Assembly (NCBI GenBank): GCA_024224415.1
Contig: JAAENK010000020.1
Span: 1-41,713, forward strand
Length of the DNA: 41,713 nucleotides
Reading direction: 5' to 3'
Source: Gammaproteobacteria bacterium
Lineage (GTDB): Bacteria; Pseudomonadota; Gammaproteobacteria; GCA-001735895
Within the stretch, counting starts at the first letter, position 1. Every line of letters begins with the position of its first letter. A model generated the notes under the pieces. That model had not been told where the DNA came from, searched no databases, and worked only from the letters and a program-made list of their open reading frames with translations. Shown piece by piece: positions 2,690 to 41,713 of this stretch. A program made the translations under genes and the position numbers.

Positions 2690-4009
2690 TTGAGTATTCG
2701 GTATAAACTTAAGCTTCTACTTTTGATTTTATTTATTTCTGCTATCGGAAATACCATATTTATTTTCATTTTGGAGGATCAGGAAGAGGACAAGCTCGAC
2801 TGGGTTATTCATACTCATATGGTATTAACTCAATCTGAAAAACTGCACAGTTCGATGATTGATGCAGAAACCGGCCAAAGAGGATATTTGCTCACCAAGG
2901 ATACTACTTATCTGGAACCATACTATCTCGGATTAACCTCTTCACAACAGAATCTTAAAACGTTAATGCAATTGACATCAGATAATCCAGGTCAACAGGA
3001 AAGATTGGATGCAATCAAAAATATGATGGTGAAAAAGTTCGATGAGTTGAGTAAGACGATCAGCTTGATGAAAACTAGTTCTGATCAAGCCAGGAATGAA
3101 GCGCTCCAAATAGTCAAGGAAGACATCGGTAAAAAATACATGGATGCTATAAGAGATGAGCTATTGGAATTTAACAGCATAGAGCAAGTTTTATTAGAAG
3201 AAAGAAAAGGTGACTTTAGAGAAAGCCGTGCCTACATCACCACAATCGTCGGAGCTGAAATCATATTTTTTATTACTATGGCGTTAGTCACATGGATATT
3301 TATTAGGGATAAATTATTTAGCCCACTAGAGAAATTACTTGAAACAACGTCAAAGGTTGAAAGAGGAGAGAAGCAACAAATTTCGGATGTGCTACCAGAT
3401 GACGAAATGGGATATTTGCTCTCTCGTTTTTATCAGATGAGTGAAAAAATACACTCAAGAACAGAGGAATTAAGCTATGCGGCTAGCCATGATCATTTAA
3501 CGGGGCTTAGAAATCGAAGCAACCTAAAGCGTGTTATTGATGAGTCTCTCGTCAATATAACGAGTGATGGCCAAAAAGTAGCCGTGTTATTTTTAGACTT
3601 AAACAAGTTTAAACAATTGAATGATACTCTTGGGCATGATGCTGGAGACGCTGTACTGATAGAGACGGCGAATCGTCTTAAGGACTCTGTTCGTCTTGAT
3701 GATGATGTTTTTCGATTAGGAGGCGATGAGTTTGTTATCGTAGCCAAGTATCTCTCTGAGTTATCTGAGGTAAAAAAACTAGTTTCAAAGATTGCTAATA
3801 AATTTTCGTCTACTTACATATTTCAGGGGGAGTCTTTAGACATCTCAATAAGTATTGGGGTAGCGATTGCGCCTGAAAATACGATGTATAGCGTAGAGCT
3901 ATTAAAGTTTGCGGATATTGCAATGTATATGGCTAAAGCTGATAAAGAAACCAGTTTCAAATTCTATGAAAAATCCATGCTAACTCCAGCTATTGATAGT
4001 CATCACTGA
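2690..4009 (+). CDS. Membrane-bound diguanylate cyclase with CHASE3-like sensor domain
   Basis: TTG start; two TM segments flanking a CHASE3-like region (SSMIDAETGQRGYLLTKDTTYLEPY); HAMP-like linker; GGDEF domain with intact RLGGDEFVIV. Confidence 0.9.
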   Translation: MSIRYKLKLLLLILFISAIGNTIFIFILEDQEEDKLDWVIHTHMVLTQSEKLHSSMIDAETGQRGYLLTKDTTYLEPYYLGLTSSQQNLKTLMQLTSDNPGQQERLDAIKNMMVKKFDELSKTISLMKTSSDQARNEALQIVKEDIGKKYMDAIRDELLEFNSIEQVLLEERKGDFRESRAYITTIVGAEIIFFITMALVTWIFIRDKLFSPLEKLLETTSKVERGEKQQISDVLPDDEMGYLLSRFYQMSEKIHSRTEELSYAASHDHLTGLRNRSNLKRVIDESLVNITSDGQKVAVLFLDLNKFKQLNDTLGHDAGDAVLIETANRLKDSVRLDDDVFRLGGDEFVIVAKYLSELSEVKKLVSKIANKFSSTYIFQGESLDISISIGVAIAPENTMYSVELLKFADIAMYMAKADKETSFKFYEKSMLTPAIDSHH

Positions 4010-36980: not shown

Positions 36981-37053
36981 CTCGATTTGATGAAGAGACA
37001 ATTAATCAATTGTTTAACTGGTGTTACCGACCATCATCTTGCAGAATAAAATT

Positions 37054-39126
37054 ATGTCGAAAATTCAGTCACACAAACGAGTCCACTCAACCTGTCCACA
37101 CGACTGTCCAGGCACCTGCGCTCTCGAAGTTGAACTGCTGGATGAGCATACAATCGGTCGTATTTATGGCGCAAAGGATAATAGCTATACCGCTGGTGTG
37201 ATTTGTTCCAAGGTAGCACGTTATGCCGAGCGTATTCATCATCCTGACCGGCTTGGCCAACCCTTGCGCCGGGTGGGACAAAAGGGTGTTGGTATATCGG
37301 CATTTGAAGTTATTAGCTGGGATCAGGCGCTTGATGAAGTAGCCCATAAATTCCAGAAATCCATAGATAGATACGGCAGTGAAACGCTATGGCCCTTCCA
37401 CTACGCCGGCACCATGGGATTGCTGCAACGCGATGCACTGGATTGCTTTAGGCATTGTCTCAAAACTTCGCGGCAACACTCGACTTACTGCACGGGCTTA
37501 TCTGAGGCAGGATGGAAAGCAGGCGTTGGTGGCAGACGCGGTTCGGATACGCGTGAGATGGTCAATAGCGATTTGATCGTTGTCTGGGGCGGTAATCCGG
37601 TGAGTACACAGATTAATGTCATGCAGTATATTGCCCGGGCAAAACGTGGACGTAATAGCAAACTAGTAGTAATCGACCCTTACCGCACTCCGACTGCGGA
37701 GAAAGCCGATATGCATTTAATGTTACAGCCAGGCAGTGACGGCGCATTAGCTTGCGCGGTGATGCATGTATTGTTTACTGAAGGCTATGTTGATCGGGAT
37801 TACCTGCAGGAATATACCGATGTGCCAGATGAGCTTGAGAACCATTTAGCTACAAAAACACCACAATGGGCAGCCTCTATTACCGGCCTTGATATTGACA
37901 CTATTCTGGCTTTTGCACGAATGTATGGCAAAACCAGTCGTAGTTTTATTCGTATTGGTTATGGCTTTACCCGCTCGCGTAACGGTGCGGCCAATATGCA
38001 CGCTGTTTCCTGCCTGCCCGCACTCACCGGTGCGTGGCTACACCAGGGAGGCGGTGCATTGTACTCCCAGGGTGATTTATACGGTGTTGATCAAAGCGTT
38101 ATTAAAGGTATTGATCAACTTGATAGCGATACCCGTGTTTTCGATCAATCACGCATTGGTGATGTGCTTTGTGGTAACTTTGCTGACTTGCAGGGAGGCG
38201 CACCTGTAAGCGCGATGATCATACAGAATACCAATCCGGTTGTGGTCGCTCCTGAGACAAAAAAAGTCATCGCAGGCATGCAACGCGATGACTTGTTTAT
38301 TTGCGTGCACGAGCAGTTTATGACCGAAACTGCGGCAATGGCCGACATTGTGTTACCAGCGACCATGTTCCTCGAACACGATGATTTTTATCAGGCTAGC
38401 GGTCACACCCACCTGCAGACAACGCGTCAGGTGATTGAAGCTTATAGCGAGTGTCGGAGTAATCACCAGGTATTGAGCGATCTGGCCAAAAGACTCGGGG
38501 TCAGTCATCCATGTTTTGAAACTGAAGCGCGTGACTTGATAGACCAGAGCTTGCAATGTTCGGGTTATCTCGATGAAAGCAGTTTGTTTGCACAGCACTG
38601 GCAGGACTGCGCCACCGACTTCGAAACTGCCAACTTTGTCAACGGGTTCGATACGCCTGATAAGCGTTTTCATTTCAAACCCGACTGGCGCCGGGTAGGG
38701 CAGGACATCGATGACATGCCGGTGTTGCCCGATTATATGCCGGTTTTAAACAACCGTGATGCAGACCATCCATTTCGCCTGGTGGCAGCGCCAGCGCGTC
38801 ATTTTCTCAATACCAGTTTTACCGAGACGGCAACTTCGCAACGCTACGAAAAACGCCCGACAGTAAAAATCCATCCGCAGGATGCATCAGACTTGAAGAT
38901 TGTCGATGGACAGAAAGTAAGGGTTGGCAATCAACAGGCCGATATCGTCTTACACACCGAAATCTTCGATGGTCTGCAACCGGGCGTAATCGTTATCGAA
39001 AGCATCTGGCCAAACAAATCCTTCGAGGAAGGCCTGGGTGTCAACGCATTGATATCTGCAGAACCTGGAAAGCCAAACGGTGGTGCAGTGTTTCATGATA
39101 CAGCGGTCTGGTTGCGAGGTGAGTGA
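37054..39126 (+). CDS. Molybdopterin (bis-MGD) oxidoreductase with N-terminal 4Fe-4S motif
   Basis: CPHDCPGTCALEVELL...GVICSKVARYAERIHHPDRL; MopB core VVWGGNPVSTQINVMQYIARAKR; C-terminal molydop-binding domain. ATG at 37054 preferred over GTG at 37021. Confidence 0.92.
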   Translation: MSKIQSHKRVHSTCPHDCPGTCALEVELLDEHTIGRIYGAKDNSYTAGVICSKVARYAERIHHPDRLGQPLRRVGQKGVGISAFEVISWDQALDEVAHKFQKSIDRYGSETLWPFHYAGTMGLLQRDALDCFRHCLKTSRQHSTYCTGLSEAGWKAGVGGRRGSDTREMVNSDLIVVWGGNPVSTQINVMQYIARAKRGRNSKLVVIDPYRTPTAEKADMHLMLQPGSDGALACAVMHVLFTEGYVDRDYLQEYTDVPDELENHLATKTPQWAASITGLDIDTILAFARMYGKTSRSFIRIGYGFTRSRNGAANMHAVSCLPALTGAWLHQGGGALYSQGDLYGVDQSVIKGIDQLDSDTRVFDQSRIGDVLCGNFADLQGGAPVSAMIIQNTNPVVVAPETKKVIAGMQRDDLFICVHEQFMTETAAMADIVLPATMFLEHDDFYQASGHTHLQTTRQVIEAYSECRSNHQVLSDLAKRLGVSHPCFETEARDLIDQSLQCSGYLDESSLFAQHWQDCATDFETANFVNGFDTPDKRFHFKPDWRRVGQDIDDMPVLPDYMPVLNNRDADHPFRLVAAPARHFLNTSFTETATSQRYEKRPTVKIHPQDASDLKIVDGQKVRVGNQQADIVLHTEIFDGLQPGVIVIESIWPNKSFEEGLGVNALISAEPGKPNGGAVFHDTAVWLRGE

Positions 39127-39130
39127 TAAT

Positions 39131-39457
39131 TTGAATATTCGCGCCATGAGAGATATCGAAGGGTATTTAGTCAATCCTGACGAATGGAATGAGGATATTG
39201 CAAATAGACTGGCCAGCGAAGAAGATATTGAACTTGATAGTAAGTATTGGTCAATATTGAATTTTATTCGGAAGTATTATAACCAGCAAAATATCGCCCC
39301 GGATGTTCGTCACCTGATTAATTACCTGGCGAGTGAAAACAAATGCGAAAAGAGAGAGGCCAAGCAGCATATTTTTGAATTGTTTCCATATGGATACGTG
39401 AAGCAGGCCTGCAAAATTGCCGGAATGAAAAGGCCGCGTGCGTGGAGCACGGGTTAG
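39131..39457 (+). CDS. DsrC/TusE-family protein lacking the C-terminal penultimate Cys
   Basis: EGYLVNPDEWNEDIANRLASEEDIELDSKYWSILNFIRKYYNQQNIAPDVRHLINYL...FELFPYGYVKQACKIAGMKRPRAWSTG; start TTG 39131 or ATG 39146 (track start 39080 overlaps the upstream gene). Confidence 0.88.
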   Translation: MNIRAMRDIEGYLVNPDEWNEDIANRLASEEDIELDSKYWSILNFIRKYYNQQNIAPDVRHLINYLASENKCEKREAKQHIFELFPYGYVKQACKIAGMKRPRAWSTG

Positions 39458-39491: not shown

Positions 39492-39737
39492 ATTTACAAT
39501 TCACCTCAGTGGTAGATGTTGACTCTACTGTTGGTGTTCCTGTTGTCACCTCAATCTGTCTGCTACTTGCTACAAGTCCGCCTGGGGCACATTGCAGCAA
39601 AAACCTGGCTAAAGATGAATGACTGCTTCCAATAATTTCTATACAAATCAGGCTTCAGCTAGACTTTTATCGACAGAGATCTTATTCTGTTCTCGCACGT
39701 GGAATTACATAAAGAACCAAATGGCAAAGGAGCATAC

Positions 39738-40238
39738 ATGCTTGTTCAGGTTGTATCATTGTTTGTGATTGGTGGAGGGGTAGGCTGGCTCGCGGGCCTT
39801 TCTGTTTCTCCGGTGATTGCAACGATTCTTGCCAGTCTGGTCGGAATTGCGGGGGGCATTGTCGCCGGTGCTCGCAGCCTTGGCAACGACTCCGAGACAG
39901 GCAAAAGTAAGGTGAGAATCGGTTGGGTCGACGCTCGCCCGGCTGCGGTGCTGGTGCTGGGAATTGTCATCGGCGCACCGCTTGGTATCATGGCTCGCAC
40001 CCATCAAATCTTCGAAGCTCCGGGCCGTGATCCGTCAACCCCTGCCGCACGGGGCGTCTTATTCGGTGCTTCGGCCGAGGAATGTGAAAGGCTTCGCGCG
40101 AGGCTGCGAAGCTCCAATGTAAAAGCTTTTCGAGATGTGCTCGCGGCGACTGGAGACTGGGGGCGGTTGCTCGAAAGCGAAATTTCCGATACCGATACTT
40201 TAAAAACGATTGTGGAGGATTTATGCGAAGCCTCGTAG
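39738..40238 (+). CDS. Small membrane protein of unknown function
   Basis: Hydrophobic Gly-rich segments (VSLFVIGGGVGWLAGLSVSPVIATILASLVGIAGGIVAGA; AAVLVLGIVIGAPLGIMA) plus a soluble C-terminus. ATG at 39738 has an AAGGAG RBS; track start 39699 is GTG. Confidence 0.7.
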   Translation: MLVQVVSLFVIGGGVGWLAGLSVSPVIATILASLVGIAGGIVAGARSLGNDSETGKSKVRIGWVDARPAAVLVLGIVIGAPLGIMARTHQIFEAPGRDPSTPAARGVLFGASAEECERLRARLRSSNVKAFRDVLAATGDWGRLLESEISDTDTLKTIVEDLCEAS

Positions 40239-41713
40239 TTGCGCTTGGCTTTTTAAGTGTTTCGGCCTGGATCAACCTGGCACTGGCCGCGGAATTGTGC
40301 CCACCGCCAATACCGTTGAGTGGTGGTGACTATGTAGATGACTGCCGCGAGGTGCTCCGCGTCGAGTGCCCGGAGCAAGGTCAGGTTCTGACTGGATTCA
40401 AGGCACGGGTTGACGGGCTTAGCGGAATCATTACTGCGCTTCACGGAGTTGTCGGCTGCCGTGAACTAGTTGCCTTCAACGCTACCGATTCCTACCGAAA
40501 CTTGCGTATTGCCAGTGTCGATATAGGCATGGATGCGGCTTTTCTCACCTCCGGCACGACGAACGAAACCGGCCTGCAATCGACCAACGGGTATGAGGAA
40601 CAGGCATTGCGTGTCATCGGTTATCCACAGGCGCTCGATTATCAATTCAGTCATCGTGTCGAGCTCCAGATTCCACCGTTGCGACAACTTTTCACCACCG
40701 TGCCGGAATGGGTGCGCACCGATCTCGAACGGCGCGGCAGTCCGCATATCGATCAAACCGTTATGAGCCTGAGCGGTGCGATCCAGAACGGTTATTCCGG
40801 GGCGCCGATACTCACCTGGGACGGACGCGTAGTCGGTGTAGCAAACGGCGGACTCAAGGAGGGCTCGGTCGATATCGGCTGGGCGATGCCGATATGGCAG
40901 CTACAGTGGCGGGATGCTCGCCTCGTCGAAACCGAACTAGCTGCACTGAGTGGTGGTCGGCCCAGCACTCTGTTCGGAGCTAACGCGAGTACCCCGGCAA
41001 CGTTGCCTGTCTACTACCTGGCGGATGGCGGTAATCCCGTCGGCCGCATTTACGAGGTTCGCGACGGTCGGCTGCGCGAGATTTACCGGCGCAAGAGTGG
41101 CCGACTTTATTCGGTTGCTGTCGCGCCGAATGGAATCTTTTACTTTTCCAACGCCAATGATAATCATATCTACAAACTCAAGGGCAACACCGAAATCAAG
41201 GTATATACGCATACCACTTATACACGAGACGTGGAATTCGATTCCCAGGGGCGTCTGTATTTTAGCGAATCCACGGGAGCAGGTGGTGATGGGATAATTT
41301 ATCGGCTGGAGGGTAACCGTGCTAAGCCGTATTACCGTGTGCGTCTCAAGGATGTGGGAGGTTTCTGGGCAGGCAATTTTGCGTTCGATTCCACTGGTTC
41401 ACTCTGGTTGAGCAATGGCAATAAAATTCTGGCTTCCTTGTACAAGGTTGTAAACAGTAAGCCACGACGAATGTTTAACTCGGGTGGCTCAATCTCGGGT
41501 TTCGCTTTCACCCGAGGCGGCGAATTGCTCTACACGGACTGGCGTCAAACCGTGCATCGTCTCGAACTACCGGGTTTCTTCGCTTCCGAAGCATTGCGTA
41601 ACGACAAGATAAAATGGGCGTCCGATGTTTCATTCGCAATCGACGGTGCCGACGCCAAGTTAAAATTGAAATTAAAACTGCCAACAATAGAAAAAATCGC
41701 GCCAGGAACAATA
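40223..41713 (+). CDS. Secreted trypsin-like serine protease fused to an NHL/SMP-30-like beta-propeller, 3'-truncated by window end
   Basis: Not in the ORF track (no stop in window). ATG with RBS TGGAGGAT; signal peptide; triad motifs ITALHGVVGC (His), IGMDAAFL (Asp), QNGYSGAPIL (Ser); then propeller-like repeats GRIYEVRDG, NGIFYFSNANDNHIYKL, QGRLYFSEST, GSLWLSNGNKI. Confidence 0.85.
   Translation, partial: MRSLVVALGFLSVSAWINLALAAELCPPPIPLSGGDYVDDCREVLRVECPEQGQVLTGFKARVDGLSGIITALHGVVGCRELVAFNATDSYRNLRIASVDIGMDAAFLTSGTTNETGLQSTNGYEEQALRVIGYPQALDYQFSHRVELQIPPLRQLFTTVPEWVRTDLERRGSPHIDQTVMSLSGAIQNGYSGAPILTWDGRVVGVANGGLKEGSVDIGWAMPIWQLQWRDARLVETELAALSGGRPSTLFGANASTPATLPVYYLADGGNPVGRIYEVRDGRLREIYRRKSGRLYSVAVAPNGIFYFSNANDNHIYKLKGNTEIKVYTHTTYTRDVEFDSQGRLYFSESTGAGGDGIIYRLEGNRAKPYYRVRLKDVGGFWAGNFAFDSTGSLWLSNGNKILASLYKVVNSKPRRMFNSGGSISGFAFTRGGELLYTDWRQTVHRLELPGFFASEALRNDKIKWASDVSFAIDGADAKLKLKLKLPTIEKIAPGTI

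Follow-up and report, generated by a model that had tools for sequence, protein, structure and literature searches.

A conserved gene pair encoding a small membrane protein and an exported trypsin-like protease in at least seven bacterial phyla

The DNA analyzed in this work (the window) spans an entire contig of 41713 bases from a fragmented draft genome of 3.07 Mb, which comprises 347 contigs, is 87% complete and has an estimated contamination of 4.2%. Two genes lie at its 3' end, one for a small membrane protein and one for an exported trypsin-like protease. The initial annotation had pointed to an open frame from 40223 to the window end; this frame exists and runs off the contig, the protease gene being broken off by the end of the assembly. 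The genes and their features are as follows.

39727-39732, + strand: Shine-Dalgarno sequence AAGGAG of the membrane-protein gene, read directly
39738-40238, + strand: gene of the membrane partner, open reading frame of 166 aa
39750-39872, + strand: TM1-TM2, glycine-rich hairpin with a near-invariant G-L-S motif (residues 20-22), from hydropathy and the homologue alignment
39933-39998, + strand: TM3, ending in Arg87, which is invariant (37/37), from hydropathy and homologue comparison
40083-40085, + strand: partner Cys116, putatively disulfide-bonded to Cys163, from cysteine co-occurrence
40214-40218, + strand: Shine-Dalgarno sequence GGAGG of the protease gene, within the partner gene, read directly
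40223-40238, + strand: 16-bp overlap of the partner and protease frames, from the open reading frames
40223-41713, + strand: gene of the exported trypsin-like protease, open reading frame with ATG start, 497 codons, no stop, 3' end missing
40223-40291, + strand: export signal, hydrophobic N-terminus (about residues 1-23), from hydropathy and a modelled helix
40224-40226, + strand: partner Cys163, from cysteine co-occurrence
40340-40957, + strand: chymotrypsin-fold protease domain (about residues 40-245), Trypsin_2, best Foldseek match Rv3671c/MarP
40367-40369, + strand: protease Cys49, putatively disulfide-bonded to Cys79, beside the active-site loop, from cysteine co-occurrence
40442-40444, + strand: catalytic His74 (37/37)
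40457-40459, + strand: protease Cys79, from cysteine co-occurrence
40532-40534, + strand: catalytic Asp104 (37/37)
40796-40798, + strand: catalytic Ser192 in GYSGAP (37/37)
41009-41713, + strand: probable beta-propeller of at least five repeats, incomplete (residues 263-497), from a repeat test and weak family matches

A Shine-Dalgarno sequence precedes both starts, and the 16-bp overlap with the upstream membrane-protein gene is present as originally described. From this layout we infer translational coupling of the two genes across the overlap. Recovery of the missing 3' end of the protease gene through contig overlap was tried and yielded nothing; none of the genome's other contigs matches the final 120 bases over their full length.

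The gene pair is richer in GC than its surroundings, as had been noticed by eye. Its total GC is 0.54-0.57 against about 0.48 for the rest of the contig, but the rise in GC3 is modest (0.55-0.57 versus 0.51 +/- 0.05 in 18 other window genes, about one standard deviation higher). Such a rise could reflect a binning or assembly artefact, that is, a foreign or chimeric contig end carrying a pair that does not belong to this genome, and the absence of the pair from relatives of the source genome and the estimated contamination of the bin agree with this. The same contig, however, bears an oxidoreductase gene with homologues in many genomes of the same genus, and the GC3 shift is small. An artefact is considered very unlikely; even if it applied here, the pair would still be genuine in the many other genomes that carry it.

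Two other observations concern the same contig. An open reading frame of 440 codons at 2690-4009 has a GC content of 0.37, compared with about 0.48 in the other window genes. A DsrC-like open reading frame (39080-39457) follows a molybdopterin oxidoreductase gene (37021-39126), and in relatives these two genes are mostly matched at separate places.

When the window protease alone was used as the query, a scan for close relatives in a species-level collection of 84,980 genomes returned nothing. Class- and phylum-wide searches retrieved three distant relatives of the protease, in the genomes G274, G471, and G547. In each of them, a gene for a small membrane protein overlaps the protease start by 4-19 bp, and these membrane proteins are related to the window partner (BLASTP E 1e-5 for that of G274). 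A profile built from these three concatenated pairs and that of the window succeeded where the window query had failed, detecting 48 loci and one viral contig (E-values of the relative scans refer to candidate stretches only). After two duplicates were removed, 37 loci with the pair were obtained, the window and 36 others. According to the record titles, the carriers represent at least seven phyla: Pseudomonadota (alpha, beta, gamma, and zeta), Bacteroidota, Acidobacteriota, Calditrichota, KSB1, Gemmatimonadota, and Nitrospirota; several carriers are metagenome bins, in which foreign contigs are possible.

The order of the two genes is constant, with the membrane protein first and the protease second. 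In gene calls based simply on the longest open reading frames, the two overlap by 1-25 bp in 23 of the 37 loci and are separated by 2-24 bp in the other 14. Two members of the protease clade have no partner (L064 and L082), and both begin at contig ends; no comparable upstream membrane gene accompanies twelve more distant trypsins of the same scan. Conversely, a scan of 369 genomes with a profile of the partner detected no orphan. The pairwise distances of the membrane proteins and the proteases are strongly correlated (Mantel r=0.82), a value reached in none of 5000 permutations. Both window genes have their nearest relative in L084, a locus from a magnetotactic Nitrospirota organism labelled Candidatus Magnetocorallium paracelense, at 34-35% identity; the window and this locus are joined in the tree at 100/99 support, although the window branch is long. 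Because of this relative, a similarity of the protease to the magnetosome protease MamO was considered; it was set aside, being weaker than that to MarP and common to many other members.

The pair is a real two-part envelope protease system, and the dedicated membrane partner proposed at the outset has proved to be conserved, tightly linked, and co-evolving with the protease across phyla. The two genes occur together at 36 further loci and do not correspond to a named family. No description of the pair was found in the literature, within a search limited to open-licence papers.

The constant order, tight coupling, and strict co-occurrence would also suit a protease with its inhibitor or immunity protein, in which the partner, made first, would shield the cell while the protease targets other cells or the extracellular space. 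Neither protein, however, resembles known secreted toxin or immunity families at a meaningful score, and no conserved secretion apparatus is located near the pair, which leaves this explanation improbable.

The protease carries a hydrophobic export signal, recognized by hydropathy and as a modelled helix, in agreement with the signal peptide originally assigned to it. The trypsin-like triad is equally well founded, since H74, D104, and S192 are invariant in all 37 homologues, window included, and the AlphaFold model of the fold has a pLDDT of about 90 or higher over most of its length. Every member matches Pfam Trypsin_2 at E<=0.01, the window protease scoring 27.4 bits, just below the cut-off of 27.6. 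Matches to Peptidase_S3 and other viral proteases were judged to be general trypsin-fold similarity. The Cys49 and Cys79 positions, near the active-site His, are both occupied by cysteine in 13 of the 37 proteases and both missing in 24, counts of co-occurrence that are inflated by relatedness among the sequences.

Among known proteases, MarP (Rv3671c) is the closest to this domain in both sequence and fold. The MarP model NF033740 matches all 37 proteases over the protease part, with E down to 2.6e-21, and Rv3671c takes rank 1 in the Foldseek search with the modelled domain. MarP is a membrane-anchored periplasmic protease with four N-terminal helices within the same chain, and in acid stress it cuts RipA, a peptidoglycan hydrolase (PMC6628586). 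Both proteases are exported to the periplasm and tied to a few membrane helices. In MarP, however, these helices belong to the protease chain, whereas in the pair they are encoded by a separate gene, and the protease has one export signal only and an extra C-terminal domain. No sequence similarity was detectable between the partner and the membrane part of MarP. The window protease reaches 36.9 bits with NF033740 against a cut-off of 250 and covers only model positions 223-371 of 390. Although the protease resembles MarP in both sequence and fold, it stands outside the MarP family by score and by the placement of its helices.

The protease could also be an ordinary quality-control protease of the HtrA/Deg type that has lost its PDZ domain, with the partner merely as an anchor. 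Many members match HtrA, DegP, and DegS models weakly, HtrA proteases appear in the structure-search list below MarP, and the HtrA/DegS group (S1C) has the chymotrypsin fold, the periplasmic location, and the export signal in common with the protease of the pair. The PDZ domain of that group, however, is missing from the Pfam matches of all 37 members, and a PsbP-fold or other domain is conserved at that place; the protease is therefore not an HtrA by definition. In addition, the HtrA family motif is GNSGG, and the proteases of the pair have GxSGAP instead. The separate membrane partner is a further difference, and on sequence as well as fold the protease is matched better by MarP. An ordinary protease of the HtrA/Deg type is judged unlikely.

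The membrane partner consists of three hydrophobic helices, as seen by hydropathy, and a C-terminal domain of variable length. No consistent family match was obtained for it in Pfam, NCBIfam, or PDB; matches to SLATT, TauE, and pyrophosphatase were scattered, weak, and inconsistent, and were attributed to hydrophobic composition. Of the 37 partners, 33 have both cysteines of the C-terminal domain, and the same four lack both. The chance of their missing in the same four rows is 1/66045 when relatedness is ignored, and relatedness inflates this co-occurrence as it does in the protease. The simplest reading of the cysteine covariation is a disulfide in each protein and hence a periplasmic location. 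Net charge is positive in the TM2-TM3 loop and negative in the segment following TM3, a distribution that agrees with the periplasmic C-terminal domain predicted from the partner sequence. The export signals and the two covarying cysteine pairs support the envelope location first proposed.

The C-terminal region of the window protease differs from that of most relatives. Five tandem repeats score 233 versus 186 +/- 12 in shuffled sequences (0/1000 as high), with repeat boundaries chosen by eye, and weak matches connect the region to the Reg_prop, WD40, Vgb, PorZ, and ScyE models and to G-beta in PDB. AlphaFold left this region without a confident model, because the 36 alignment mates carry no propeller. 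The significant repeats and the weak family resemblance make the propeller described in the initial annotation likely, on the basis of sequence, for this incomplete gene.

In typical relatives, the protease is followed by a domain of about 210 residues that matches no Pfam family and gives a confident PsbP-like model (pLDDT 93.7). Its similarity to the PsbP/Mog1 fold is supported by Foldseek (probability 1.00, E 6.8e-5, TM 0.5-0.6 on the target), with an identity of only about 10%. A profile of this domain is matched in 33 of the 37 proteases, with a second copy in some Rhodobacterales, and is absent from the window protease, L074, L084, and L097. Thus, the PsbP-fold domain is typical of the module, not defining. 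In the window protease, the probable propeller takes its place, and no recognized propeller occurs among its relatives in the 37-member set. The earlier view of a propeller sensor as the defining part of the system is not borne out, and the surveillance or signalling role suggested along with it is conjectural; the propeller appears to be a replacement found once in the set and not a hallmark.

The interpretation favored here, with moderate confidence, is that of a split, membrane-tethered periplasmic serine protease with a C-terminal module binding a substrate or signal. The first product would be inserted in the inner membrane by its three helices and would present a disulfide-bonded domain on the periplasmic side. 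The second would be exported and then, through contact with this domain, held, folded, or switched on; the holding is modelled on MarP, whose N-terminal helices act in one chain. The C-terminal module, with the PsbP fold in most relatives and probably a propeller here, may bind the substrate or signal, and under stress the protease may cut one or a few envelope proteins. The best-supported model is a membrane-held periplasmic protease acting on specific envelope proteins, like MarP on RipA, with its membrane part contributed by the partner gene. Support for a split protease comes from the tight adjacency of the genes, the correlation of 0.82, the absence of orphan partners from 369 genomes, and the invariant triad, together with the cysteine covariation, the loop charges, and the resemblance to MarP in sequence and at Foldseek rank 1. 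The lack of similarity between the partner and the membrane part of MarP counts against it. So does the patchy distribution; this pattern is uncommon for a housekeeping stress protease and would suit an accessory or conflict role as well.

This distribution is sparse at every level. With the partner profile, the pair was found in 2 of 369 genomes of the class; with the protease profile, it was found in none of 40 other genomes of the same order. For each of three carriers, about 100 related genomes likewise lack it, and the tree of pairs mixes phyla. No neighbor gene is conserved across clades, and a search for a fixed third gene yielded only a GH19/peptidoglycan-binding gene in some Bacteroidota. 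In G471, a tyrosine integrase adjoins the pair, and on one IMG/VR contig (L097, 3975-6131 and 7198-9413) a divergent copy of the pair lies beside a tape-measure protein gene. The position around groEL-fxsA-dsbD also differs between two loci: in Bowmanella (L086) the pair lies between fxsA and dsbD, near groEL, whereas in Alteromonas antoniana (L071) it is missing from that stretch and is located across groEL instead. The integrase, the tape-measure gene, and the shifted positions are hints of mobility of the pair. Further scans of viral contigs with other subgroups gave no additional pair copies. The G471 protease has no match at 1e-5 in 50,697 phage and 72,556 plasmid records, nor has the window protease in the plasmid records; at 1e-3, the matches of another member's protease to phage and plasmid records cover the protease domain only. 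The absence of a full match in these records counts against heavy mobility.

These same observations bear on a conflict module, in which the protease would sense an envelope event and cleave or release the glycine-rich partner, so that the membrane is perturbed in phage exclusion or an abortive response. The sporadic presence, the mixed phyla, the lack of neighbors common across clades, and the three contexts just described all speak for it, and trypsin-like peptidases are found in known conflict systems (PMC7159879). Trypsin-Trypco and NucA-trypsin (PMC7159879) likewise combine a trypsin-like protease with a dedicated neighbor; the partner of the pair differs in being a membrane protein of three helices that matches no Pfam family, and vWA-MoxR, NucA, or STAND genes do not recur among the neighbors of the pairs. 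The RT-Protease XI model of PADLOC resembles the protease domain (3.5e-8), but the match is confined to the model's protease part, and the pair has no reverse transcriptase. Beyond the protease domain, neither protein has a specific PADLOC match. Defense models match few of 113 neighbor genes, a count given without a baseline, and the phage and plasmid records offer no more than the protease domain. A conflict module is possible but rather doubtful.

A second reading, entertained tentatively, is that the pair represents an undescribed class of two-protein envelope device that has spread horizontally and in which the partner controls the protease, possibly in defense against phages or competitors. 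Its recognition domains (PsbP-fold, propeller, and others) would be interchangeable, and the polytopic partner would relay or execute the response.

The protein pair is conserved in at least seven phyla, and the family libraries searched contain no entry for its membrane half. Its strict pairing, invariant catalytic residues, and covarying cysteines offer clear experimental targets. If the partner controls the protease, the pair would be a two-gene version of the one-gene control of MarP, with swappable recognition domains. The window copy, with a propeller suggested by its repeats, may be an instance in which such a swap has happened.

Additional genes accompany the pair in some Bacteroidota. 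In L054 (7120-7935), L059 (4014-4829), and L060 (7147-7932), the pair is immediately preceded, at about 22-26 bp, by a gene for a lytic enzyme of the GH19 type that bears a peptidoglycan-binding domain, in an operon-like arrangement. A second relative of the partner is located 3' of the protease gene in L054 (10240-10710), L059 (7156-8103), and L064 (1278-1877).
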